From Gammaproteobacteria bacterium (GTDB lineage: Bacteria; Pseudomonadota; Gammaproteobacteria; JAADHQ01): a stretch of 39,813 nucleotides of DNA. A program made the position numbers and the translations under genes. The notes beneath the pieces were generated by a model. The model ran no database searches. It had not been told where the DNA came from and saw only the letters and a list, made by a program, of their open reading frames with translations. The DNA lies in the NCBI GenBank assembly GCA_011052215.1, contig DRJK01000078.1, positions 1 through 39,813 of the forward strand, in the 5' to 3' direction. Shown here one piece after another: positions 2 to 39,644 of the stretch. Positions within the stretch are counted from its first letter, which is position 1. Every line of letters starts with the position of its first letter.

Positions 2-322
2 TATAAGGTCATCTGGTCAATGATTGCCGAAGGAGACTTGATTTCAATCATCAAGTACATTCATTCCAATAATCCAGTCGCAGCGAAGAACAGTCTAAAA
101 AAGATAAAATCCAAAGCATCAAATCTAAATAGTTTTCCTCAGCGGGGGCGCATTGTTCCAGAGCTTAAAGAAAACGGCATTCTTCAGTATCGAGAGCTTA
201 TAGTTGCTCCTTGGAGAATAATCTATCGAATCTCAGACTCCAATGTATATGTACTGTCGGTCATTGACTCACGACGGAATGTTGAAGATATCCTGCTTCA
301 CCGACTTGTGAGAGTAAAATAA
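2..322 (+). CDS. RelE/ParE-family toxin, 5' end outside the window
   Basis: The reading frame is open from base 2, and the residues before the first internal Met read Y-K-V-I-W-S, which is how ParE-type toxins usually begin. The true start is therefore probably a codon or so outside the window, not the ATG at 20. The protein has the family hallmarks: an N-terminal helical hairpin, a central FPQRGR stretch, then YRELIVAPWRIIYRI and VLSVIDSRR near the C-terminus. These toxins either cleave ribosome-bound mRNA (RelE) or poison gyrase (ParE), and the sequence does not show which. The antitoxin should lie just upstream, outside the window. The stop codon is directly followed by an attC-like hairpin, as expected for an integron gene cassette. 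Family call is secure; target is not. Confidence 0.85.
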   Translation, partial: YKVIWSMIAEGDLISIIKYIHSNNPVAAKNSLKKIKSKASNLNSFPQRGRIVPELKENGILQYRELIVAPWRIIYRISDSNVYVLSVIDSRRNVEDILLHRLVRVK

Positions 323-442: not shown

Positions 443-850
443 CTATAGCTGAGAGAGGTAATCTGATACGGATATGGCAGTAGATGGGAATACGCGCAAT
501 ATTGTTTTATCTTGAGTCACTAATTTTGTATCAAAATGATGAGCAAGTGCAACAAACTCACAGTCGTATGATGAACAGTTACTTTCATCTATGAGTGTGA
601 GTATCTGTGATGATGAAACGTCATATTCATTTTGAATTATAATTGACTCAGCGGTATCTTGAATCTGCATTGCTTTTTCCAGGCTGATAATCTTCTTTCT
701 AAGGTAAAGCGCCATGACGTTACGAAATTCACTTTTCCAAAGTATGGGGGCTGCCCAATCAGGATCAATTTTATAAAGGCTTTCAACTGAATCTGTATAT
801 GAAGTCGGGAGTAGAAGATAAGAAATAATATTAGTATCAGCAATAATCAT
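443..850 (-). CDS. PIN-domain VapC-type toxin
   Basis: A 135-residue PIN-domain protein, predicted to be a metal-dependent ribonuclease toxin of the VapC type. The acidic PIN residues are visible: Asp5 in the opening IIADTN motif, Glu41 in KSEFRN, Asp96 in SSYDCEFVALA and Asp114 in VTQDK. It overlaps the antitoxin gene upstream by 4 bp (ATGA), so the pair is translationally coupled. It is transcribed opposite to the neighbouring ParE gene and, if the attC-like site is real, lies inverted inside its cassette. That is known for toxin-antitoxin cassettes with their own promoter. Lower GC than the flagellar block supports separate origin. VapC enzymes usually cut tRNA or rRNA; the target here is unknown. 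Confidence 0.87.
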   Translation of the reverse strand: MIIADTNIISYLLLPTSYTDSVESLYKIDPDWAAPILWKSEFRNVMALYLRKKIISLEKAMQIQDTAESIIIQNEYDVSSSQILTLIDESNCSSYDCEFVALAHHFDTKLVTQDKTILRVFPSTAISVSDYLSQL

Positions 851-2853: not shown

Positions 2854-3330
2854 TCAAAAACTGTCAAGTTCATTCCATTCTTCGTCGGTTAACAGTTTAT
2901 TGATGTCGATCAGGATCAACAGGTTGCCATCCAGTGTCGCGACCCCTTCTATATATTTGGAGCTGTCATCATTTCCGACGTTGGGCGAGGTCTCTATCTG
3001 GTCTGCCTTCAGGTCTACGACCTCGGCTACACTGTCTACCAGGATACCAACGACATTGTTATCTGATTCAAGGATAACAATACGTGTTGAGTCACTATTC
3101 TCGGCCTGTGGCAGTCCGAACCGCGAACGGGTATTGATAACGGTGACAACATTGCCGCGCAGGTTAATAATGCCCATGACATAGTGCGGTGCGCCGGGAA
3201 CCGGGGCAATTTCTGTAACCCGCAGTACTTCCTGTACCTGCATGACACGTATCCCATAGGTCTCATTATCGAGTTTATATGTAACCCATTGAATTACTGG
3301 ATCATATTCGCTATCTACGGCCTGGCTCAT
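2854..3330 (-). CDS. cheW: Chemotaxis coupling protein CheW
   Basis: A 158-residue single-domain CheW protein, the usual length. It links receptors to the P5 domain of CheA in the chemosensory array. Visible family features are the opening strand QWVTYKLDNETYGIRV, the VPGAPHYVMGIINLRG motif (about residues 43-58) and the SRFGLP and VGILVDSVAEVV segments. The start is supported by AGGA a few bases upstream. A 161-bp gap separates it from parP, and a weak sigma-54-like box lies there, so cheW may be partly independent of the long upstream operon. Confidence 0.95.
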   Translation of the reverse strand: MSQAVDSEYDPVIQWVTYKLDNETYGIRVMQVQEVLRVTEIAPVPGAPHYVMGIINLRGNVVTVINTRSRFGLPQAENSDSTRIVILESDNNVVGILVDSVAEVVDLKADQIETSPNVGNDDSSKYIEGVATLDGNLLILIDINKLLTDEEWNELDSF

Positions 3331-3491: not shown

Positions 3492-4214
3492 TCAGCCTGG
3501 TTCACCTTCAACCAGCATCTCTGCCAGGGCATCGGTATCCAGTAATGCGCACAACCGTTCGGAGACTGTCCCGGCCAGCCAGCATCGCCTGCCTTCAGCA
3601 GTGCGCCAGCGAACATCCTTTTGCTTAAGGGTGATCACCTCTCCAATCTCATCACAGGCCAGCCCCCAGCGACCTTCATCCATCAACAGGATCTTCTCAA
3701 CTCTCTTCTCTGCGGCAGGTGCATTTGCTCGCTGGGCAGGCGGCAGAATAACCTGCGCGGTATCCATCACCTGGACATTTTTATCAAGGTGACGAAGCAG
3801 CCCCAGAAATGCAAGGGAGTGTCCCGGCATCGGTGTGAGTTCATGGCTCCACGGTATCACCCCGTTCAAATTCACCAGGGGTACGGCCAGGGTTACACCG
3901 GCGACATTGAACAACAGACACTGAAACTCATGTTCTGCCCAGACCGGAATTTGCGGAACTGCGCTCTCATTCTCTGCTTTTTCCCCGGTAACTTCTGCGA
4001 CTTCACTTTGCATTTCCCCGGCCAGGGGGTCTTCTACCTGTGCTTCCTCTACTGGCTGAGGTAATTCAACTGTTTCCTGATGACATGGAAAGGCTTCAAC
4101 AATGTTTGAAGGCTTTTCTTCGGCCAGCGTATCGGGCACTTCACTCAACAGGTCTTCAAGATAGGCCATGACGGCCATCTGTTGTTCCATCAATACGGGT
4201 TTACGGTTACTCAT
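3492..4214 (-). CDS. parP: CheW-domain array-localization protein ParP-like
   Basis: A 240-residue protein. The N-terminal half (to about 120) is acidic and low-complexity with many E, P and V; the C-terminal half (about 130-238) is a divergent CheW-like domain beginning FQCLLFNVAGVTLAVPL. This layout, and its place directly after a ParA-like ATPase gene with a 4-bp ATGA overlap, matches Vibrio ParP and Pseudomonas PA1463. In Vibrio, ParP joins the CheA array through its CheW-like (AIF) domain and tethers it to the ParC pole marker. It lacks the strict VPxxPxxxxGxxNLRG motif of true CheW. Name assigned from context and architecture. Confidence 0.78.
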   Translation of the reverse strand: MSNRKPVLMEQQMAVMAYLEDLLSEVPDTLAEEKPSNIVEAFPCHQETVELPQPVEEAQVEDPLAGEMQSEVAEVTGEKAENESAVPQIPVWAEHEFQCLLFNVAGVTLAVPLVNLNGVIPWSHELTPMPGHSLAFLGLLRHLDKNVQVMDTAQVILPPAQRANAPAAEKRVEKILLMDEGRWGLACDEIGEVITLKQKDVRWRTAEGRRCWLAGTVSERLCALLDTDALAEMLVEGEPG

Positions 4215-5005
4215 ACGGCTACCACCTGCGGGTTACCCGACTTTCCCTTGATCATATCCTCCAGCAAGGAAGAGTAGGCCCTGGCACCTCGAGTGCTGAC
4301 GCGAAAATGGCTGATTGGAAGGCCGTTGCTACTGCACTCCCTGAAGAGGGTATCGATCGGGATGACAGACCGCCACAAATGTTCAGTGTAATGCTCACGT
4401 AAATATTCGAGGCTGTCTGTTGATGCCCGGGTACGACGATCAAACATGGTCGGAACGATGGTGTAGTTAATGTGGATGGATTTTGCTTTTTCAATCATCT
4501 GTATGGTGTTAAGCATCCGCTCCAGACCTTTCATCGCCAGGAACTCCGTCTGCACCGGGATAACCAGATGATCACAGGCGGCCAGTGCATTAACCATCAA
4601 TACACCCAGCATCGGCGGACAATCAATAAAGACATGTTCGTATTGTTCTGTGATCTGCCTGATTGCATTAATAACCACGAGCCCCATTCCGCTCTTTGTC
4701 CCCAACTGTTTATCGAGGGTCGCTATGGCCGTTGATGCCGGTATCAGATCAAGACCTGCCAGTGATGTTTTGTGTATCAGTGAACGGGTAAAACCATGAC
4801 CGATCTGATCCGCCTGAAAGAGATCATAAAGACTTGGCTGCACACTTTCCGGGTCATAACCAAAATAGGATGTCATTGAACCATGCGGGTCCATGTCAAT
4901 CAGTAAAGTCCTGGAACCGTGAAGCACACACATTCCTGCCAGTGAAACGGCGGTGGTTGTTTTACCCACCCCTCCCTTCTGGTTTGCGATGCTCCATACT
5001 TTCAT
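4211..5005 (-). CDS. parC: ParA-like ATPase ParC, polar positioning of chemotaxis arrays
   Basis: A 264-residue ParA/MinD-family ATPase. It begins MKVWSIANQKGGVGKTT, the deviant Walker A motif of this family, followed by LLIDMDPHGSMTSYFG (Walker A' region) and HVFIDCPPMLGVL (Walker B). Its position between motD and a CheW-like gene matches Vibrio parC and Pseudomonas PA1462, which recruit chemotaxis arrays to the old pole. Its start overlaps the motD stop by 4 bp and its stop overlaps the parP start by 4 bp, so the three are translationally coupled. A plasmid or chromosome partition role is unlikely because no parB or parS-like context is present. Confidence 0.86.
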   Translation of the reverse strand: MKVWSIANQKGGVGKTTTAVSLAGMCVLHGSRTLLIDMDPHGSMTSYFGYDPESVQPSLYDLFQADQIGHGFTRSLIHKTSLAGLDLIPASTAIATLDKQLGTKSGMGLVVINAIRQITEQYEHVFIDCPPMLGVLMVNALAACDHLVIPVQTEFLAMKGLERMLNTIQMIEKAKSIHINYTIVPTMFDRRTRASTDSLEYLREHYTEHLWRSVIPIDTLFRECSSNGLPISHFRVSTRGARAYSSLLEDMIKGKSGNPQVVAV

Positions 5006-6172: not shown

Positions 6173-6925
6173 TTACAACAAATACCCCTGTAACTTGATT
6201 TCAATATTGCGCGGATTTTCACCTTCGGCGATAGAGCTGATGCCATCCATTACCATTTCATAAAATCTGATCTGATTATTGACCAGTGACTTCAGTTTAT
6301 TTGCGACTGGCAGGAAAAAAAGATTTGCCAGGCCGACACCGTAGATTGTTGCAACAAAGGCGACTGCAATGCCCGCACCCAGGGCACCGGGGTCTGCCAG
6401 GTTATTCATGACATGAATCAGGCCCATAACGGCGCCGATAATTCCTATCGTCGGTGAGTAACCACCCATGGCCTCATACACCCTGGCTGCATCAAGTTGT
6501 GTATCTTCCTTGCTGTTAATCTCTATTTCGAGGATATTACGAATAGTCGACGGTTCACTGCCATCGACCAGTAACTGCAATGCCTTTTTCGAAAACTCGT
6601 CTTTCTCATCATCTACAATGGGCTCAAGCCCCAGTAAACCATCACGGCGCGCCATCTGGCTCCAGCCGACAATTTTTTTAATCATTTTATCAGCATTGAC
6701 CCGGGGTGGTGAAAAAACCCAGGGAAACATACGCATCGCCATCAGGAATGTAGCCTTCCTTGTCTGAACCAGGATGGCCCCGATGGTTCCTCCGGCAACA
6801 ATAACAAATGCCGTCAACTGAACCAGTGTTTGTGTTTTACCTCCCTCGAGCCAGTTACCACCAAGAATTGCTGCAACTGCAATCAGCAACCCAAGCATGG
6901 TTAAAATGTCGAGCGACTTATACAT
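6173..6925 (-). CDS. motC: Flagellar stator protein MotC (MotA family)
   Basis: A 250-residue MotA-family proton-channel subunit with the expected four membrane segments: LDILTMLGLLIAVAAILGG, then LVQLTAFVIVAGGTIGAI near residues 32-53, and two after residue 150, including MGGYSPTIGIIGAVMGLIHV. The cytoplasmic loop between segments 2 and 3 should contact FliG. Length and sequence style match Pseudomonas MotC, not MotA, and the location beside cheB is the MotCD location. It overlaps the cheB stop by 8 bp and is followed by motD after 31 bp. Ion specificity is inferred as proton from the MotD partner. Confidence 0.9.
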   Translation of the reverse strand: MYKSLDILTMLGLLIAVAAILGGNWLEGGKTQTLVQLTAFVIVAGGTIGAILVQTRKATFLMAMRMFPWVFSPPRVNADKMIKKIVGWSQMARRDGLLGLEPIVDDEKDEFSKKALQLLVDGSEPSTIRNILEIEINSKEDTQLDAARVYEAMGGYSPTIGIIGAVMGLIHVMNNLADPGALGAGIAVAFVATIYGVGLANLFFLPVANKLKSLVNNQIRFYEMVMDGISSIAEGENPRNIEIKLQGYLL

Positions 6926-8027
6926 GACTCACTATTTGCGAACCAATAGTCTGTAGTGGCAAAATCTTGTCAGCCACCCCTGCCTCTGCTACAGCCATGG
7001 GCATACCATAGATAACACAGGTCTTCTCATCCTGGGCCCAGATTGTGGAACCACCCCGATTAAGGAGCTTTGCACCTTCCCGTCCGTCTGCACCCATACC
7101 CGTCAATATAACCGCCAGGGTATTTGCAGGCATTACTTTTGCTATGGAACTGAAGGTTGTATCAACACAGGGTTTGTAATTTTGCCCGGGTTCACTTTCA
7201 TGGATGTGAATACGAAGATTGCCTTCCCTTCCTTCAACACTCATTTGCATGCCACCGGGGGCAAGTAGTGCCAGCCCGGGCTTCAGAAGATCGCCATCTT
7301 TTGCTTCCCTGATTTCTATTTTGGACAACTGATTCAGTCTTTTGGCAAATGCTTCTGTGAATGATGCCGGCATATGCTGCACAAGAATGATGGGTAGTGG
7401 AAAATTGCCTGGTAACTTTGTTAAAACCTCCTGCAATGCAACCGGCCCACCAGTCGAGGCGCCAATGGCCAACAACTTGTATTTACCTGGCCCCGGTGCC
7501 CTTGGGGCTGGGGCTGGGGCTGGGGCTGGCCTGACTATAGTTGCAGCTGGTTTGGTTGATGCTAAGCTCGGCTGTTTTAGTACAGGTGATTTTGCCGGTA
7601 TGGTAACTGCTTTTTTCTTCAGGGAAGCTTTTTGAGAACCAATGGCCCAAACTTGAGAGCAAAGTATTTTTGCCACCTCTTCCCGTTTGTTTGATAACTC
7701 GTCAAAATTTTTGGGGAGGTAATCCACGGCGCCGGCATCAAGGGCATCAAAGGTTGACTGTGCCCCTTCGTGAGTAAGTGAGGAAAACATCATAATGGGT
7801 GTTGGCTGAATAGCCATGATTCGTCGTACTGCGGTAATGCCATCCATAACTGGCATTTCAATATCCATGGTAATAACGTCGGGCTTCAGCTCCTGTGTTT
7901 TCTGGATCGCCTCTTTACCATTTGCTGCATCACCGACAATTTCTATCCGGGCATCGGTCTGAAGCATCTCCTTGACGCGCCTCCGAAAAAACCCCGAATC
8001 GTCTACAACTAGTACCTTTACAGTCAT
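6918..8027 (-). CDS. cheB: Protein-glutamate methylesterase CheB
   Basis: A 369-residue CheB that removes methyl groups from chemoreceptors during adaptation. The N-terminal receiver domain has the phospho-acceptor Asp55 in VITMDIEMP. The C-terminal esterase domain has the catalytic triad Ser191 (GASTGG), His218 (VQHMP) and Asp314 (TGMGADG). The inter-domain linker (about 140-182) is unusually rich in Pro and Ala and includes an APAPAPAP run encoded by four tandem GGGGCT-type hexamers near 7505-7530. It starts 29 bp after cheA. The partner methyltransferase gene cheR is not in this window. Confidence 0.96.
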   Translation of the reverse strand: MTVKVLVVDDSGFFRRRVKEMLQTDARIEIVGDAANGKEAIQKTQELKPDVITMDIEMPVMDGITAVRRIMAIQPTPIMMFSSLTHEGAQSTFDALDAGAVDYLPKNFDELSNKREEVAKILCSQVWAIGSQKASLKKKAVTIPAKSPVLKQPSLASTKPAATIVRPAPAPAPAPRAPGPGKYKLLAIGASTGGPVALQEVLTKLPGNFPLPIILVQHMPASFTEAFAKRLNQLSKIEIREAKDGDLLKPGLALLAPGGMQMSVEGREGNLRIHIHESEPGQNYKPCVDTTFSSIAKVMPANTLAVILTGMGADGREGAKLLNRGGSTIWAQDEKTCVIYGMPMAVAEAGVADKILPLQTIGSQIVSHV

Positions 8028-8056: not shown

Positions 8057-10195
8057 TTACAGATGTGATCTCATCAATCCTGGCACATCAAGAATCAATG
8101 CTATGCGTCCATCGCCTGTAATAGTCGCACCTGCAAAACCTGCCAGACCATGCAGCAAATGCCCCAAAGGTTTTATTACAACTTCTTCCTGGCCCAAAAC
8201 CTGTGTCACGACAAACCCGATCCGCTGACTACCGAGGTGTGTTACCACTACCTGCTCTTCTTTATTCTCGTCAGGAACCTGATCATCCATAGCCGTTACC
8301 AGCCACTTTTCCATATAGAAGAGAGGCATCGCCTTTTCCCTGACCATAACTGTCAGCTGGCCATCAACCATATTGGTCTTGAAATCCTCCAGATGAAATA
8401 TTTCATTTACACTGGATAAGGGTAACGCAAAATTACGTGATCCTACTTTTACCATCAGTGTTGGCAGGATCGCCAGTGTCAGTGGCAACTGGATGCTCAA
8501 GGATGTTCCCTTACCCTGTTGTGAACTAATTTCTATATGACCGTTCAGCTGCGCTATTCTTGTTTTGACGACATCCATACCCACGCCACGCCCGGACACA
8601 TCTGAAATTTCTGTTTTTGTCGAGAATCCAGGGTGAAAAATCAGCTCATAACATTCCTTGTCATCAAGGCGCGCAGCACTTTCGGTATCCATAACACCTT
8701 TTTCAACGGCCTTGCTCCTTAATAACTCCGGATCCATCCCCGCACCATCATCCGTAATCCTTAGCAGGATATGATCTCCTTCCTGTGCCGCCGATAATAC
8801 AACCTTGCCGATTCGTGGCTTGCCGCTTTTTTCCCTGGCATCCGGCATCTCGATTCCGTGATCAACCGAATTGCGCACCAGATGGACCAGCGGATCTGCC
8901 AACGCTTCAACCAGGTTTTTGTCCAGATCGGTTTCCTCACCAACCAGTTCAAGATTGACTTCTTTTTTAAGACTGCGGGCCAGGTCACGCACAACACGCG
9001 GGAAGCGCCCGAATACTTTTTTGATTGGCTGCATCCTGGTTTTCATGACTGCTGATTGCAAGTCAGATGTTACGATGTCCAGGTTGGACACGGCCTTTGT
9101 TATCTGTTCATCGTTCACGGCCTCTTTAAGGGTATGCAACCTGTTTCGCACAAGCACCAGCTCACCGACCATGTTCATAATATCGTCAAGTCGTTTTGTA
9201 TCGACGCGCACTGTTGTTTCTGCTGCGGGTTTGGCCGGGGCCTTTGCAGCCGGCGCGGTCTTTCCCTTCACTTCTGAATGGGTCGTAACCTTTTTGACAT
9301 CCGATGTGCTGTCAGTGTCCGGGGTCTTCTTTTGTTCCGGTTTGGCCACAGGTTCAACCGAAGCCTTTACCGGCCCCTTGCCTTCACCATGCATTTCATC
9401 GAGCAGTGTCTCGAACTCCTGATCGGTGATTTTATCTGATCCCGCCTTATTCTCTGGTGCCGGTTCAGTATTGGCCGATTTGCTGTTGTCTTCCGATACT
9501 GTTGGCCCCTTGCCTTCACCATGGATCTGGTCAAGCAGGTTATCAAATTCCTCATCGGTAATCTCATCGGGTGCAGCACTAGCAGATTTATCACTATCAG
9601 CAGTTTTTTCTGCGGCCGTACCTTTTTGTGGAGATTGACCACTTGCCGCAAGCGTATCCAGCAAGGCATCAAATTCTTCGTCGGTTATATCGCCCTGTGG
9701 GCCTTCTGCTGTTACCTCGGCAGGTTGATCGTCTGCTACGGTTTCTTCAACAACCGGCACCTCTGGCTCACTGGCTTCACCAGTAGAATCCACCTGTTCA
9801 CCTGGTCCTTCGGTGGTCATATTTTCCAACTCGGCCAACAGTTCCGGAGATGCAGGCGTCAGCGGCTCGCCTTCCGAGACCTGTGAAAACTGGTCATTAA
9901 GAATATCAAGTACGGCAAGAAAATGATCCATCATGGTAGCGTCCAGGATTTTGTCACCCTGGCGAAGAACGTTGAAGACATCTTCTGACCGGTGGCAGAC
10001 TGCTACCATGTTCTCCAGTGCCAGGAACCCCGCACCGCCCTTGATGGTATGAAAACCCCTGAAGATGGCGTTGAGCATATCCAGATCTTCCGGATTTTGC
10101 TCCAGCTCAACCAGTTGTTCGTTGAGTTGCTCGAGAATTTCTCCTGCTTCTACAAGAAAATCCTGAAGTATTTCATCATCCGCTTCAATTTCCAC
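8057..10195 (-). CDS. cheA: Chemotaxis histidine kinase CheA, P2-less with three acidic repeats
   Basis: A 712-residue CheA that autophosphorylates and passes phosphate to CheY and CheB. The P1 domain (1-105) carries His49 in FHTIKGGAG. P3 dimerization starts near 328. The P4 kinase has N-box HLVRNSVDHGIE (438-449), G1 DDGAGMD (482-488) and G2 GRGVGMD (535-541). P5, the CheW-like part, covers about 575-712. Residues 106-327 show no recognisable P2 domain. Instead there is a low-complexity acidic linker with three copies of ITDEEFDxLLD at about 171-182, 212-231 and 256-275; the last two continue HGEGKGP. Start is GTG at 10195 with AGGGGA upstream; an ATG is absent at a sensible distance. It follows cheZ by 11 bp. 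Confidence 0.96.
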   Translation of the reverse strand: MEIEADDEILQDFLVEAGEILEQLNEQLVELEQNPEDLDMLNAIFRGFHTIKGGAGFLALENMVAVCHRSEDVFNVLRQGDKILDATMMDHFLAVLDILNDQFSQVSEGEPLTPASPELLAELENMTTEGPGEQVDSTGEASEPEVPVVEETVADDQPAEVTAEGPQGDITDEEFDALLDTLAASGQSPQKGTAAEKTADSDKSASAAPDEITDEEFDNLLDQIHGEGKGPTVSEDNSKSANTEPAPENKAGSDKITDQEFETLLDEMHGEGKGPVKASVEPVAKPEQKKTPDTDSTSDVKKVTTHSEVKGKTAPAAKAPAKPAAETTVRVDTKRLDDIMNMVGELVLVRNRLHTLKEAVNDEQITKAVSNLDIVTSDLQSAVMKTRMQPIKKVFGRFPRVVRDLARSLKKEVNLELVGEETDLDKNLVEALADPLVHLVRNSVDHGIEMPDAREKSGKPRIGKVVLSAAQEGDHILLRITDDGAGMDPELLRSKAVEKGVMDTESAARLDDKECYELIFHPGFSTKTEISDVSGRGVGMDVVKTRIAQLNGHIEISSQQGKGTSLSIQLPLTLAILPTLMVKVGSRNFALPLSSVNEIFHLEDFKTNMVDGQLTVMVREKAMPLFYMEKWLVTAMDDQVPDENKEEQVVVTHLGSQRIGFVVTQVLGQEEVVIKPLGHLLHGLAGFAGATITGDGRIALILDVPGLMRSHL

Positions 10196-10206: not shown

Positions 10207-10977
10207 TTAAAAACCCAGGCTCGACAAAAGATCGTCCACATCATCCTGGCCATTTACTGTCTCACTTGAATGATCTACCCCTGGCACGACCGGGCCTTCA
10301 GCCTCAATATCTCTTGCTCCAGCTCCTTTTTTATTTTCTTCTTCGATCGGTGGGCCTGACATCTTGATGAGTGCGACCAGGCCTTCCTCGACATCATGCA
10401 CAAGATTGATAACCCGCCTTATAATTTGACCCGTCAGATCCTGAAATCCCTGCGCCATCAGTATTTCATTAAGATTCTTATTTAACAAAACCGTACCAGA
10501 CGATATTTTTGGAAAGAATTCATCCAGATCCCTGGACAGTTCACGAAATTCATCTGCGCTGAGCTTCCTGTCCTTGAACTTGTCCCAACGTGACTGGAGT
10601 TCAAGTGAACAGGCTTTAATGTCATCCGATAATGGCAACGCTTCCTCGACAGCAGTGAGCGTTTTATCGGCTGCCTCTTCTGTCATGCTAATAACGTGAT
10701 TCAAACGTTCCTTGGCATCCGGAATTTCTGACTCTGCCAGGCCGGCCAGCTTGGTATCCAGTTTAAAACTGGAAAGTGAATCATGAAGCTGTCGGGTCAG
10801 TTTGCCCATTTCCTTGAACAGATCCACCTCACGCAGGCTGGATATTTCATCCATAATAACCCGGGCATGTCCGGCATTTCCGGATTCAATGCTTTCAACC
10901 AGCTGGCGTGCATGGCCAAGCGCGGTTTCATCAAGTATGGAATCTGTTCCTGCCGCTACTGTATTCTGCTTACTCAT
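10207..10977 (-). CDS. cheZ: CheY-P phosphatase CheZ
   Basis: A 256-residue CheZ that dephosphorylates CheY-P. The catalytic motif QGFQDLTGQII includes Asp180 and Gln184 (counting from the Met at 10977), equivalent to E. coli Asp143 and Gln147. The last residues DDVDDLLSSLGF form the C-terminal CheY-binding helix. The frame is open to 11019, but AAGGAGA lies 4-5 bp ahead of the ATG at 10977, and the longer version would overlap cheY, so 10977 is preferred. Located between cheY and cheA in the chemotaxis operon. Confidence 0.95.
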   Translation of the reverse strand: MSKQNTVAAGTDSILDETALGHARQLVESIESGNAGHARVIMDEISSLREVDLFKEMGKLTRQLHDSLSSFKLDTKLAGLAESEIPDAKERLNHVISMTEEAADKTLTAVEEALPLSDDIKACSLELQSRWDKFKDRKLSADEFRELSRDLDEFFPKISSGTVLLNKNLNEILMAQGFQDLTGQIIRRVINLVHDVEEGLVALIKMSGPPIEEENKKGAGARDIEAEGPVVPGVDHSSETVNGQDDVDDLLSSLGF

Positions 10978-10996: not shown

Positions 10997-11386
10997 TCAT
11001 GCGCTTTCGAGCCGCTCAAATATCTTGTCCAGTTTTTCTTTCAGCGTGCCAGCAGTAAAGGGTTTTACGATATACCCGTTTACTCCAGCCTGCGCAGCTT
11101 CCACTATCTGGTCACGCTTCTGCTCGGCTGTTACCATTAATACAGGCATTGATGCCAGGTCTTTGTCGGCCCTGACAGCCTTGAGTAATTCAATGCCCGT
11201 CATGCCCGGCATGTTCCAGTCTGTAACCAGAAAGTCATACCCGCCTGCCTGCAGCATGGGTAGTGCCGTCTTGCCATCATCCGCTTCGGCGGTATTATTA
11301 AACCCGAGATCACGTAACAAGTTTTTTATAATGCGTCGCATTGTAGAAAAATCATCAACGACCAGGATTTTCATATTGGTATCCAA
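10997..11386 (-). CDS. cheY: Chemotaxis response regulator CheY
   Basis: A 129-residue single-domain receiver that binds FliM when phosphorylated and changes motor direction. The acid pocket Asp11-Asp12, phospho-acceptor Asp56 (LVTDWNMPG), Thr86 (MVTAE) and Lys108 (IVKPF) are all present. The start is probably the TTG at 11386: AAGGAGG sits about 5 bp before it, while the first ATG at 11374 would be some 17 bp from that binding site. The resulting N-terminus ([13 protein letters not shown]) also resembles Vibrio CheY. It is 60 bp from fliA, with no clear promoter seen in that gap. Confidence 0.96.
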
Positions 11387-11446: not shown

Positions 11447-12193
11447 CTATTCCTTTATTTTAGGAAAAAACTCCGTCATCCTTGCGCGTAATCGAATCAG
11501 TGCTTGCCCATGAATCTGACATACCCTCGATTCACTCACTCCTAAAACCTCTCCAATCTCTCTTAAATTCAGCTCTTCGTCATAATAAAGTGACATGACC
11601 AGGCGTTCGCGTTCTGGCAGACCTGAAATTGAATCCGATAATTCCCGCTGAAAATCCTCGTTCTGCAACATTTCGACCGGGCCCTGCTGCTTGCCTTCTG
11701 TGACCGCCTCACCACCAACACCATCCTCACCAAAAAATCCCGGGTCTTCAAAACTGAGTACCCGACTACCGGCAGCATCCTGCAGGATCTGGTGATAATC
11801 ATTGATATCCATTTCAAGCAATTCAGCGACCTCGTGGTCACGGGCATCCCGCCCCATATCATTTTCGATTCGCCTGACGGCATCGGCAACCATCCTGACC
11901 TTTCGATGAACCGATCTCGGTGTCCAGTCTGAACGTCTGATCTCATCCAGCATGGATCCACGTACACGAATGCCGGCATAGGTCTCGAAACTGGCCCCCT
12001 GTTGAGGGTTATAATTTCTGGATGCCTCCAGCAGTCCAATCATCCCGGCCTGGATCAGGTCCTCCACCTGGACGCTGGCTGGCAGCCGGCTCACCAGATG
12101 ATAGGCAATACGCTTGACCAACCCGGCATGCTTTTCTACCAGATTATGCTGCTCTGTTGGGTCCTTTGTTACAAACATAGCGTATCCATTCAT
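11447..12193 (-). CDS. fliA: Flagellar sigma factor FliA (sigma-28)
   Basis: A 248-residue sigma factor of the FliA type that directs late flagellar and chemotaxis transcription. Region 2 is visible in ASVQVEDLIQAGMIGLLEA and TYAGIRVRGSMLDEIR, region 3 in VRRIENDMGRDARDHEVAELL, and the region 4 helix-turn-helix in LNLREIGEVLGVSESRVCQ. Its ATG overlaps the flhG stop codon by 4 bp. A sigma-28-like promoter inside the end of flhG could allow self-activation. The anti-sigma factor FlgM is not encoded in this window. Confidence 0.97.
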   Translation of the reverse strand: MNGYAMFVTKDPTEQHNLVEKHAGLVKRIAYHLVSRLPASVQVEDLIQAGMIGLLEASRNYNPQQGASFETYAGIRVRGSMLDEIRRSDWTPRSVHRKVRMVADAVRRIENDMGRDARDHEVAELLEMDINDYHQILQDAAGSRVLSFEDPGFFGEDGVGGEAVTEGKQQGPVEMLQNEDFQRELSDSISGLPERERLVMSLYYDEELNLREIGEVLGVSESRVCQIHGQALIRLRARMTEFFPKIKE

Positions 12194-13077
12194 ATCCTTG
12201 ACTCCGATTGACCCTGCTGGGAACGAATGAGTCGCTCCAGAAAAAACTCCAGATGTCCTGCTGCTGCATCGGGTCTAGGCCACTTATCGGCCTTTTGTGC
12301 CAAATTCTTGAATGCCATGGCTGATCTACTCCTCGGGTAAGCATCTACGACCGACCTTTGTTTTTTTATGGCCTTCCGCAAGTAGTCATCGTAGGGTACG
12401 GTGCCCATGTTTATTAAAGTTGCGTCCAGATAACGGTCTGCTACCGATACAAGCTTGTTGTACAACTCCCTGGCCTCCTGGGCTGTGTGGGTCATATTGC
12501 TTAATATCCTGAATTTTTGTACGTTATATTCACTGTTTAACACCTTTATAAGTGCATAGGCATCGGTCAGTGAGGCCGGTTCGTCACAGACAACCACAAC
12601 AACCTCCTGGGATGCCCTGGCGAAGGCAATAACAGAATCAGAGATTCCAGCCGCGGTATCGACAATCAACACGTCGACATCCTGGCTTAATTCACTGAAT
12701 GCCCGGATAACACCGGCATTTTCCATCGGTGACAATTCTGCCATCTGTTTTACTCCCGAGGACGCTGGAATAACCTTGATTCCTCCCGGGCCATCAATGA
12801 TGACTTCCTCAAGAGTGCGTTCGCCATTCAGTACATGGGAAAGGTTATATTTCGGTCTCAGGCCCAACATAATATCGACATTGGCCAGACCCAGATCGGC
12901 ATCCATCAGCAACACATTCTTGCCGGTGGCAGCAATGGCCAGGGCCATGTTAACCGAGACATTGGTTTTACCCACCCCACCCTTTCCACTTGATACGGCA
13001 ATGACCCTCACCGGTTTTGGATTAGCCATTCTTCGCAGTCCCAGCGCCTGGTCAACCACCTTTTCAGCCATGAGCAT
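12190..13077 (-). CDS. flhG: Flagellar number regulator FlhG (FleN), MinD-like ATPase
   Basis: A 295-residue MinD/ParA-family ATPase that limits the number of polar flagella by acting on FlhF and FleQ. The N-terminal DQALGLR (9-15) is the FlhF-GTPase-activating motif. The deviant Walker A is GKGGVGKT (31-38), and LLMDADLGLANVD (57-69) is the A' segment. The ATG at 13077 has GGAAG at a suitable distance and overlaps the end of flhF by 14 bp. A sigma-28 promoter candidate lies in its last 40 codons. Confidence 0.96.
   Translation of the reverse strand: MLMAEKVVDQALGLRRMANPKPVRVIAVSSGKGGVGKTNVSVNMALAIAATGKNVLLMDADLGLANVDIMLGLRPKYNLSHVLNGERTLEEVIIDGPGGIKVIPASSGVKQMAELSPMENAGVIRAFSELSQDVDVLIVDTAAGISDSVIAFARASQEVVVVVCDEPASLTDAYALIKVLNSEYNVQKFRILSNMTHTAQEARELYNKLVSVADRYLDATLINMGTVPYDDYLRKAIKKQRSVVDAYPRSRSAMAFKNLAQKADKWPRPDAAAGHLEFFLERLIRSQQGQSESRI
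12284..12311 (-). promoter_or_regulatory. Candidate internal sigma-28 promoter ahead of fliA-cheY
   Basis: On the minus strand TCAAGAAT (12304-12311) and a perfect -10 element GCCGATAA (12284-12291) are separated by 12 bp (consensus TAAAGTTT/TCAAG-type, 11 bp, GCCGATAA). It lies within the flhG coding sequence, about 90 bp before fliA. Because it is within codons (AFKNLAQKADK) the match could be chance, but the -10 is exact. Confidence 0.45.
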
Positions 13078-20643: not shown

Positions 20644-21618
20644 TTATTCATGCAATACCAGTTTCTCATCGATTTTTATTGCATTATTCCCGCGGGAAAC
20701 ACCAAACTTTCCCCTGAATACCGACAGATTTTCTACACAAAGCACAACCTTTTCAGGCATATCGATAGGAATAATATCTCCCTCCTTGAAATCAAGTACC
20801 TGCTGAAGTGACAGTTGTGTCTCGATAAAATTGGATGAGAGTTCTACATACGCCTCTTTCATTTCTTCCTTTAGCGAGTGTGACCAGCGCTCGTCGATAT
20901 CAGAACGGTCACTCTGCACACCGGCATCCAGCTGCTCCCGAATGGGTTCAATCATTGAATACGGGAAGGCGACATGCAGTTCACCACCTCCGCCTTCCAG
21001 CTCCATCTGAAAAGTCGTTACGACAACGACTTCCGTCGGGCTGACAATGTTGGCAAACTGTGGATTGACTTCTGAAGTCTGGTATTCGAAATCCACTGGC
21101 ATAACGGGTTTCCATGCTTCCTGAAAATCACTAAATGCCTGCTTCAGCAACATCATGATGACCCTGTTCTCGGTAGGCGTGAAATCCCGCCCTTCAATCT
21201 TGGTGTGTCGCCCTGAACCACCAAAAAAATTATCCACCAGAATAAAAACAAGTTTCGGGTCGATAACAAAAAGTGCTGTACCGCGTAAGGGGTTGACCTT
21301 GACAAGATTCAGGCTGGTTGGCACAAACAGACTATGGATATATTCACCAAATTTCATCATCTGCACGCCACCGACGGCAATTTCCACTGTTCTCCTGAGC
21401 ATGTTGAACAGACTAATCCTGAAATGGCGCGCAAAGCGTTCATTTATCATTTCCAGTGTCGGCAGGCGTCCCCGGACTATCCTGTCCTGGCTATTAAAAT
21501 CATATGATGCCGCCGAACCATCATCCGGGATTTCGGACTCGGTTTCGATATCACCATCACCGACACCATGCAGTAATGCGTCTATCTCGTCCTGTGATAA
21601 TAAATCCGATGATGCCAT
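20644..21618 (-). CDS. fliM: Flagellar motor switch protein FliM
   Basis: A 324-residue switch protein. The N-terminal CheY-P-binding peptide LLSQDEIDALLHG is at residues 6-18. The middle domain includes VDNFFGGSGRHTK, the GGxG FliG-binding loop. The C-terminal SpoA domain follows (FKEGDIIPIDMPEKV). It starts 3 bp after fliL. The N-terminal peptide is strikingly similar to three repeats inside this cluster's CheA. Confidence 0.98.
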   Translation of the reverse strand: MASSDLLSQDEIDALLHGVGDGDIETESEIPDDGSAASYDFNSQDRIVRGRLPTLEMINERFARHFRISLFNMLRRTVEIAVGGVQMMKFGEYIHSLFVPTSLNLVKVNPLRGTALFVIDPKLVFILVDNFFGGSGRHTKIEGRDFTPTENRVIMMLLKQAFSDFQEAWKPVMPVDFEYQTSEVNPQFANIVSPTEVVVVTTFQMELEGGGGELHVAFPYSMIEPIREQLDAGVQSDRSDIDERWSHSLKEEMKEAYVELSSNFIETQLSLQQVLDFKEGDIIPIDMPEKVVLCVENLSVFRGKFGVSRGNNAIKIDEKLVLHE

Positions 21619-37422: not shown

Positions 37423-39531
37423 CTACTGTAGTAACGATAATGCCAGTTGTGGCAGTGAGTTTGCCTGTGAAAGAATCGCAACACCTGCTTGCTGCAGTAT
37501 TTGCGCCCGGGTCAGTTTGGCGGTTTCTGCCGCATAGTCTGCGTCCAGGATTCGTGAACGTGCAGCCGTCAGATTCTCTGCTGTCGAGGTGTTACTGGTA
37601 ACCGTAGATTCAAAACGGTTGGCCACCGCACCCAGATCCGCACGGATACTGTTCACCTGGTCCAACGCACCATCAAGACGTGCAATCGCGGCATTCGCAC
37701 CTGCAACGGTGGAAATATTGACATTATTAATCGTTTGCTGAGTTGCCGTAGCTGAACCCAGGCCGGCCTTCGCTGCATTGTTACCCGTAATAATAAAGGT
37801 AGTCGATGAACTCAGCTCGATTGTTCCCGCATTCTTGTTGCCGCCGGAGGTGTAGGTACCATTGGCGCCGTTCGTGCCCTGGGCACCTGTAATACCTGCG
37901 GTCGGTAATGTGCTGTCCAGCACATCGGCATCACCGGTGTCACCATAATTTTCAGCCGTTAACAACACCCTGCCTGCGTTGCTATTCGTTGCCACTACAT
38001 TGGTAGCGACCGCAGTATAGCGACCCGTAATTGCGGTGAAGAGCGATGTTGCCTGAATTGTTGCACTGGCACCCAGGTCCACCTGGGTATTGCCTGTAGT
38101 AGCGGTTCCACCTGAGAATGTAAACTCATAAGACACACCGCCTACAGTCAGGGTATCACCCACGGCCAGGCCGGTGCCTGTTGTGGAATAGGTGCTGGTT
38201 GCCGTACCACCTGAAATGGTGGCATCCGTATGAGTAACCGTACTTGATAATACAGATGATGTTATACGAATTTTTGTATTGCTCGTAGAGGAAGCGGTTA
38301 CATTTGCAGAACCACTTGAGATAGCTGCCGCCGCATTAGTGGTGGTTACCGTAGTAGTACCACCAATCGTAATTTTGGTGTTACCCGAACCTGTTACGGC
38401 TGTAGCAGTGATCTGAAACTCATACGTTACACCCCCTACAACAATGGTATCTCCAGCCAGGGCGGCTGTGTCACCTCCATTCAGGCCTATATCGTTCACG
38501 CCAGCCACACCGCCAAAGGTGTAGTCATAAGTACCTTTTGTCTGACCAGTTGATATCTCGATACCGGCCGCATTTTCCAGTCGGGCCGCACCGGCATCAC
38601 TATTGGTTGTTGTGATGTTAATGTCCTTACCGGTAGCAGACGACAATGTCAGCGCACCCGTTGACAGGTCAGATGTTGCAGTTATGCCTGTGCTGCTAGT
38701 GACATTATTGACCGCGGCAGCGAGACTGGCACCTTGTGTGGCAATATTGTTATTGCCTGCGACAGCACCGACATTCACGCCGTTGAGCACAAGATCACCC
38801 GACTGCAGGGTCTGGTTACGGCTCAGTGTGATCGTACTTGTATAGGAAGTACTGGCCGTTGCAGTCACGCCGGTTGTAGATTTGACACTGTTGATAGCAG
38901 CGGTCTTGGCTTCAGCAGAAGATGAGGTAGTTGAACCCACATCTACACTGTTTATCAGTAGATCGCCACCAGCCAGGTTGGCTGTTGTCACGGCACTGGC
39001 AGATGAACCCACCTGGTATGCACCCAGGGCCTCTGTTGATGCATTACCAATGTTAACCGTAATAATCTGGTTGGCGTTTGCACCTACCTGGAACTGTGCC
39101 CCGGTGAAAGTACCATCGATGATGTTCTGTCCGTTAAACTGTGTGGTTGCTGAAACACGCGACAACTCTGACAGTAGCTGTGAGGCCTCACTGTTCAGTG
39201 CGGTACGGTCTGAGGAAGAGTTGGTACTGTTCGCAGACTGCAGGGCCAACTCACGAATACGTTGCAGGATGTTTCCGTACTCACTCAGTGCGCCTTCAGC
39301 CGTCTGTGACAGTGAAATCGCGTCATTCGCGTTTCGTGATGCCTGGTTCAAACCACGAATCTGTGCTGTAAAACGTTCAGAAATCGCCAGACCCGCAGCA
39401 TCATCTTTTGCAGAGTTGATACGCAAACCGGAAGACAAACGTTGCAGGGATGTCGCTAATGCACTTTGAGATTTACTGAGGTTACGCTGCGCATTCAACG
39501 ACGCAATGTTACTATTAATGGATAAAGCCAT
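37423..39531 (-). CDS. fliC: Flagellin FliC with enlarged variable region
   Basis: A 702-residue flagellin, much longer than Pseudomonas (about 400) or E. coli (498). The N-terminal D0/D1 ([18 protein letters not shown] and [19 protein letters not shown]) and the C-terminal D0 ([28 protein letters not shown]) are canonical. The centre, about residues 165-580, is Thr/Ser/Gly/Ala-rich and contains internal duplications: [12 protein letters not shown] and [12 protein letters not shown] (about 188 and 244), and [13 protein letters not shown] and [13 protein letters not shown] (about 360 and 458). The Met at 39531 is used because MALSIN is the universal start; an upstream in-frame codon at 39546 is not. 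It has a sigma-28 promoter. Confidence 0.97.
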
Positions 39532-39644
39532 GATTTTTCTCTCCATATCTCCCGCGTTATCAATAAGATAGAGGCAAGAGTCTGGTTAAACCTTAACGGA
39601 TATACTTCATCAGTTTGCGAAGTATTTACCGTTCCCGATCCAAT

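Follow-up and report, generated by a model that had tools for sequence, protein, structure and literature searches.

The window, by which we mean the whole stretch of 39,813 nucleotides that was analysed, carries the gene order cheY-cheZ-cheA-cheB-mot-parC-parP-cheW with flagellar genes adjoining, which is that of the F6-type chemotaxis loci of Gammaproteobacteria; assignment to the F6 class is based on gene order and the literature, not on class profiles. The features on which the analysis draws are the following.

8057..10195, minus strand: cheA, 712 amino acids, GTG start (ORF, Pfam, AlphaFold2), with P1/Hpt (residues 8-97), linker (about 131-329), P3 (327-386), P4 (434-573) and P5/CheW-like (580-710) segments and no P2
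9209..9805, minus strand: CheA linker, residues 131-329, predicted by AlphaFold2 to be disordered save for three short helices
9656..9688, minus strand: repeat 1, residues 170-180, ITDEEFDALLD, without an HG tail
9503..9562, minus strand: repeat 2, residues 212-231, ITDEEFDNLLDQIHGEGKGP
9371..9430, minus strand: repeat 3, residues 256-275, ITDQEFETLLDEMHGEGKGP
10210..10245, minus strand: C-terminal tail of CheZ, DDVDDLLSSLGF, CheY-binding by homology (sequence)
10997..11386, minus strand: cheY (aligned to the E. coli protein and to 101 relatives)
6918..8027, minus strand: cheB, whose receiver domain may also be a client of the repeats (Pfam Response_reg and CheB_methylest)
21565..21600, minus strand: FliM residues 7-18, LSQDEIDALLHG, CheY-binding peptide by homology (PSSM score 13.4)
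4211..5005, minus strand: parC, ParA/MinD-like ATPase (Pfam AAA_31)
3492..4214, minus strand: parP, N-terminal extension and CheW-like (AIF) domain (Pfam CheW, alignment)

Elsewhere in the window there are a putative RelE/ParE-like toxin ORF (20-322, plus strand) and a putative PIN-domain (VapC-like) ORF (443-850, minus strand), both at the window edge, as well as a large flagellin-like protein of 707 amino acids with an expanded Thr/Ala/Gly-rich central region (37423-39546).

The original prediction held that residues 106-327 of this CheA contain no folded P2 domain. A profile search for a true P2 in this interval found none, and neither profile matches nor the predicted fold revealed a folded domain between P1 and P3. 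The Pfam matches above cut-off were Hpt, H-kinase_dim, HATPase_c and CheW, at the limits listed for P1, P3, P4 and P5, respectively, with no match above cut-off between the first two, and no P2 or CheY-binding model was among the 25 Pfam families listed for 87 homologous linkers. Comparison of a profile of the repeat-class CheA linker with the P2-like domains of CheA paralogues likewise gave no match. We had considered HMM matching as decisive proof of P2 absence and dropped it, as the P2-like domain of control CheAs from other classes escapes Pfam too, in agreement with a survey in which P2 was found in fewer than 20% of CheAs by HMMER and in about half by profile-profile search (PMC10542144). 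Because profile scans alone are weak evidence, we used AlphaFold2, with a model built on a 63-sequence homologue alignment. The pLDDT of this model is below 50 over most of residues 131-329, where the only structures are isolated helices at 172-183, 214-225 and 258-269, which coincide with the three repeats; the disordered-looking linker of the original prediction is thus also that of the model. Foldseek with the model retrieved known CheA P3-P5 structures, and PDB sequence searches with the linker returned chance matches only. The evidence that P2 is absent from the window CheA, and that the repeats are a conserved feature of its class, is strong.

The three motifs of the ITDEEFDxLLD type are all present and in frame with CheA, the cores of the second and third being ITDEEFDNLLD (residues 212-222, nucleotides 9562-9530) and ITDQEFETLLD (residues 256-266, nucleotides 9430-9398). 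The tail HGEGKGP, expected on two copies, follows the second (QIHGEGKGP) and the third (EMHGEGKGP) and is missing from the first. Over 11 codons, the pairwise comparisons give 6 synonymous differences and 1 replacement, 6 and 3, and 5 and 3. Since these differences are mostly synonymous, the repeats are old copies kept at the protein level and not a recent DNA duplication. Each is predicted to form an isolated amphipathic helix within disordered linker, as expected of a CheY-binding peptide of the FliM/CheZ type.

Relatives of this CheA were drawn from a genome-wide relatives search and from 84,980 species genomes that were scanned, and they include proteins of Vibrio, Photobacterium, Aliivibrio, Shewanella, Pseudomonas, Stutzerimonas, Marinobacter, Pseudoalteromonas, Alteromonas and Methylomonas, as well as of many uncultured lineages. 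The motif occurs in nearly all relatives found, mostly in three copies. Counted with one matrix, it is present in all 145 CheAs parsed (79 from named loci, 44 from genomes with ParP in an evenly drawn class sample, and 22 from genomes picked for weak or absent ParP), in one to four copies and usually three. One of these (G028) lies barely above the matrix threshold; left out of the set were a CheA that a frame change in the assembly splits in two (G161, L191/L299) and a named locus on which the linker parser failed (L091). Among 302 repeat copies position 4 is Glu in 300, position 5 is Phe in 301 and position 9 is Leu in 296, and the core E-F-[ED]-x-L-L-D is near-invariant; the consensus of the class is SDEITDDEFEALLDELHGKG. 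The linker outside the repeats is of low complexity and cannot be aligned, leaving the repeats as its sole conserved element. One relative (L031, G036) is a CheA in which the core pattern is matched as many as eight times and whose linker has a long KPAAAPA repeat. The poor conservation of the surrounding linker is compatible with the repeats being conserved spacers or solubility elements between P1 and P3, with no specific partner, but the near-invariant core, the synonymous divergence between copies and the helix predicted for each copy demand a binding constraint, and we consider this explanation very improbable.

A scan of the phylum with a stricter pattern found the motif in 31 of 219 genomes, all of them Gammaproteobacteria, and other genomic matches to the pattern were, where inspected, unrelated proteins or chance reading frames. 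The repeat matrix separates the classes of CheA as well: 15 CheAs of other classes score at most 11.0, and true repeats at least 24.5. The other-class CheAs, from the same and from other genomes, bear no repeat and have instead a conserved block with the predicted order beta-alpha-beta-beta-alpha-beta, which we call P2-like on the basis of its position and secondary-structure order only. Foldseek with this control block retrieved generic ferredoxin-like and RRM folds, with no CheA P2 among the best 50, and E. coli P2 gave no alignment with the P2-like domains. The second CheA of the source genome (L241, G000:C83) has a P2-like domain and no repeats. In CheAs of the repeat class, the repeats and their disordered linker replace P2 rather than supplement it, and the repeat is the rule for this gammaproteobacterial class, not a peculiarity of the source genome.

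The repeats had been proposed to resemble the N-terminus of FliM and, less closely, the tail of CheZ, whose sequences in the window are as originally quoted. A smoothed matrix made from 308 repeats was run over 2,994 ORFs. The FliM peptide LSQDEIDALLH is its highest-scoring match outside CheA in the window (13.4, the next being 7.8), and windows scoring at least as high as the FliM N-terminus number 6 of 618,844 peptide windows. The FliM N-terminus keeps the pattern L-S/N-Q-D/E-E-I/V-D-A/T-L-L in 28 of 29 genomes fetched, the remaining one not having been parsed; the CheZ tails of relatives are SQDDVDDLLSSLGF and similar, near E. coli SQDQVDDLLDSLGF. The FliM residues reported to contact CheY are L6, Q8, I11, D12 and L14, and in V. 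cholerae also L15, H16 and D4, the last reaching a CheY arginine (PMC3774744). Aligned with the repeat, L6, Q8, I11, D12, L14, L15 and position 16 fall on I, D/E, F, E/D, L, L and D, and D4 falls on an acidic residue two positions before the repeat Ile (D in 283 of 415 copies, 68%; E in 43 of 415). Each CheY-contacting residue of FliM is thus matched chemically by a residue of the CheA repeat.

The FliM peptide with its EIDALL motif, the C-terminal helix of CheZ and the CheA repeat have in common the pattern Hydrophobic-Ser/Thr-x-Asp/Glu-Glu-hydrophobic-acid-x-Leu-Leu. They differ in that the key hydrophobic residue is nearly always Phe in the CheA repeats and Ile or Val in FliM and CheZ, that the CheA repeats are internal and repeated whereas the other peptides are terminal and single, and that the repeats bear an extended LHGxG tail; they are also part of the kinase, while the FliM peptide belongs to the motor and the CheZ helix to the phosphatase. 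FliM and the repeats are modestly alike, and the likeness appears to be in part that of any N-capped amphipathic helix, since 79 of 87 linkers match SHOCT models and the C-termini of CheW and N-termini of ParP also score. The C-terminus of the window CheW (2854-3330), LTDEEWNELDSF, contains LTDEEWNELD, which resembles the repeat, and CheW tails of several relatives score on the repeat matrix, as does the N-terminal helix of Vibrio ParP.

A rival reading is that the repeats are a helical motif binding a partner other than CheY or ParP, for example FlhG, CheW/P5, or the repeats themselves through SHOCT-like self-association. In polar flagellates the N-terminus of FliM is a binding site for FlhG (PMC12826062), which the window encodes at 12190-13077, and the weak SHOCT matches also favour this reading; SHOCT (PF09851) shares with the repeats a short N-capped helix. 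It is, however, a short C-terminal domain and the repeats are internal and repeated, and its score in the window CheA is below the Pfam gathering cut-off (18.1 bits for the protein and 23.3 for the linker alone, against 27). Contact between FlhG and CheA is without direct evidence, and the repeats match all of the CheY contact positions, so that we judge another partner unlikely.

On the side of CheY, the window protein has the residues of the FliM-binding face, namely K91, R92, I95, A99, Y106, V108, K119 and K122 in E. coli numbering; I95, A99, Y106 and K119 are found in all 102 CheYs aligned and K122 in 96 of them. The face that would receive a FliM-like peptide is intact in the window CheY, judged by its sequence. 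The CheY residues facing P2 (92, 94 and 103) have been reported to change upon recruitment of an F6 CheY to an F7 CheA, which bears P2 (PMC7184735). The window CheY is in the F6 state at these positions (R92, Q94, V103), where F6 CheYs differ from that of E. coli, and this fits an F6 CheA without P2.

The original prediction offered as an alternative that the repeats bind the CheW-like domain of ParP, as the localization motif (LID) of Vibrio CheA does. The AIF domain of ParP is known to bind the CheA-LID, which is said to occur only with ParC/ParP and before P3 (PMC5706961, PMC7534058). The repeats, too, precede P3 within the linker of a CheA of this class, encoded here with both ParP and ParC. 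Since the LID must lie in the CheA linker and nothing else is conserved there, we infer that it overlaps the repeats. ParP in turn consists of a conserved N-terminal helix (AxxxYLxxLLxE), a variable acidic linker and the CheW-like domain; both candidate tryptophans of ParP, Trp203 and Trp212, are invariant in the ParP alignment.

In a class sample of 232 genomes, the majority of those with a repeat-class CheA have ParP. Of 23 loci fetched because they lacked a strong ParP match, 9 had a weaker or positional candidate, 13 had none and 1 was the split CheA; the first threshold, 1e-15, had been too strict, and the nine genomes with candidates were no longer counted as ParP-less. For the other 13 genomes, from 11 families, there was no ParP at the cheA locus, and genome-wide searches at E 0.001 gave no match or weak CheW-sized matches. 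All 13 keep the CheA repeats, in one to four copies, and several also lack ParC in the locus. Four loci (L177 and L183-L185, in G146, G179, G102 and G059) have ParC adjoining cheA/cheW and no detectable ParP, so that either ParP is unrecognisable there or ParC acts without it. In the ParP-less L188 (G178), a longer unit, GVDPDGEITDDEFEALLNQRD, occurs three times in CheA, with the core ITDDEFEALLN kept and the LHGxG tail lost.

Copy number varies with ParP: the 36 families with ParP have a mean of 2.8 copies and no single-copy member, and the 11 without have a mean of 2.1, three of them being single-copy (Fisher p 0.010; Mann-Whitney p 0.013, with families collapsed, phylogeny otherwise uncorrected, and the two groups of genomes differing in other ways). 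That ParP-less genomes keep the repeats means that ParP binding cannot be the sole reason for their conservation, and that genomes with ParP never have fewer than two copies suggests that ParP may use a copy too. The idea that the repeats are only a ParP-binding LID, holding CheA in polar arrays without docking CheY, accounts for the published AIF binding, for the restriction of linker conservation to the repeats, for the presence of ParP and ParC in the window and the invariant tryptophans, and for the two or more copies in every family with ParP. A motif serving ParP alone should decay without it, though, and this idea is improbable in our view. The LID as described also lies after a P2 and only where ParP/ParC occur, unlike the repeats, which occur without ParP and without P2. 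The alternative is thus weakened as the only function and stays plausible as a second role.

We propose for F6-type gammaproteobacterial CheAs that a disordered linker with one to several, usually three, helical peptides has taken the place of a folded P2. Each repeat would bind the alpha4-beta5-alpha5 face of CheY, and perhaps of CheB, in the manner of the N-terminal peptide of FliM and the C-terminal one of CheZ, and docking would keep the substrate near P1. Where ParC/ParP exists, at least one of the repeats is probably bound by the CheW-like domain of ParP as the published LID, and the repeats would then serve substrate docking and array anchoring alike. P2 (PF07194, PF09078) likewise lies between P1 and P3, with the same proposed role in docking CheY and CheB; it differs in being folded, some 70-90 residues long and usually single-copy, whereas the repeats are isolated helices of about 12 residues. 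The original prediction of a P2 substitute gains from the absence of P2, the nature of the linker, the likeness to FliM with its contact map, the intact CheY face and the persistence of the motif beyond ParP. It is weakened by the finding that a CheA lacking P2 still passes phosphate to E. coli CheY, and that more than half of CheAs have no P2 (PMC10542144, PMC10782961), because the absence of P2 then needs no substitute. We infer CheY binding, ParP binding and the sharing of copies from these comparisons. CheY docking is the best-supported role of the repeats, with about an even chance of being correct, and sharing with ParP is plausible; that the repeats are an ancestral array of CheY-docking motifs in P2's stead, with ParP probably sharing copies, we hold to be evenly balanced between true and false. 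More tentative, and rather doubtful, is the fuller version in which a multivalent array mimicking the motor is both the dock for CheY, instead of P2, and the site for ParP, loading and tethering compete for or share the helices, and copy number changed in evolution along with the two roles.

The loss of P2 in CheA and the LID have already been published. We found no paper describing the repeat motifs in the open literature, nor did searching texts for the motif string itself yield one, with the LID-defining paper outside this comparison. The absence of P2 questions the textbook five-domain drawing of repeat-class CheAs, as in a P. putida study that took CheA as five-domain and deleted its 'YB/P2' segment (PMC11978298) and in a Vibrio review that places the LID after P2 (PMC7534058). 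Given that more than half of CheAs are without P2, the repeats are a specific, class-wide conserved candidate for CheY docking in a class that spans the well-studied Vibrio, Pseudomonas and Shewanella, and they suggest a possible answer to how P2-less kinases hold both CheY and the polar anchor protein. Should ParP and CheY bind to the same helices, a mechanical link would join polar anchoring to phosphotransfer.
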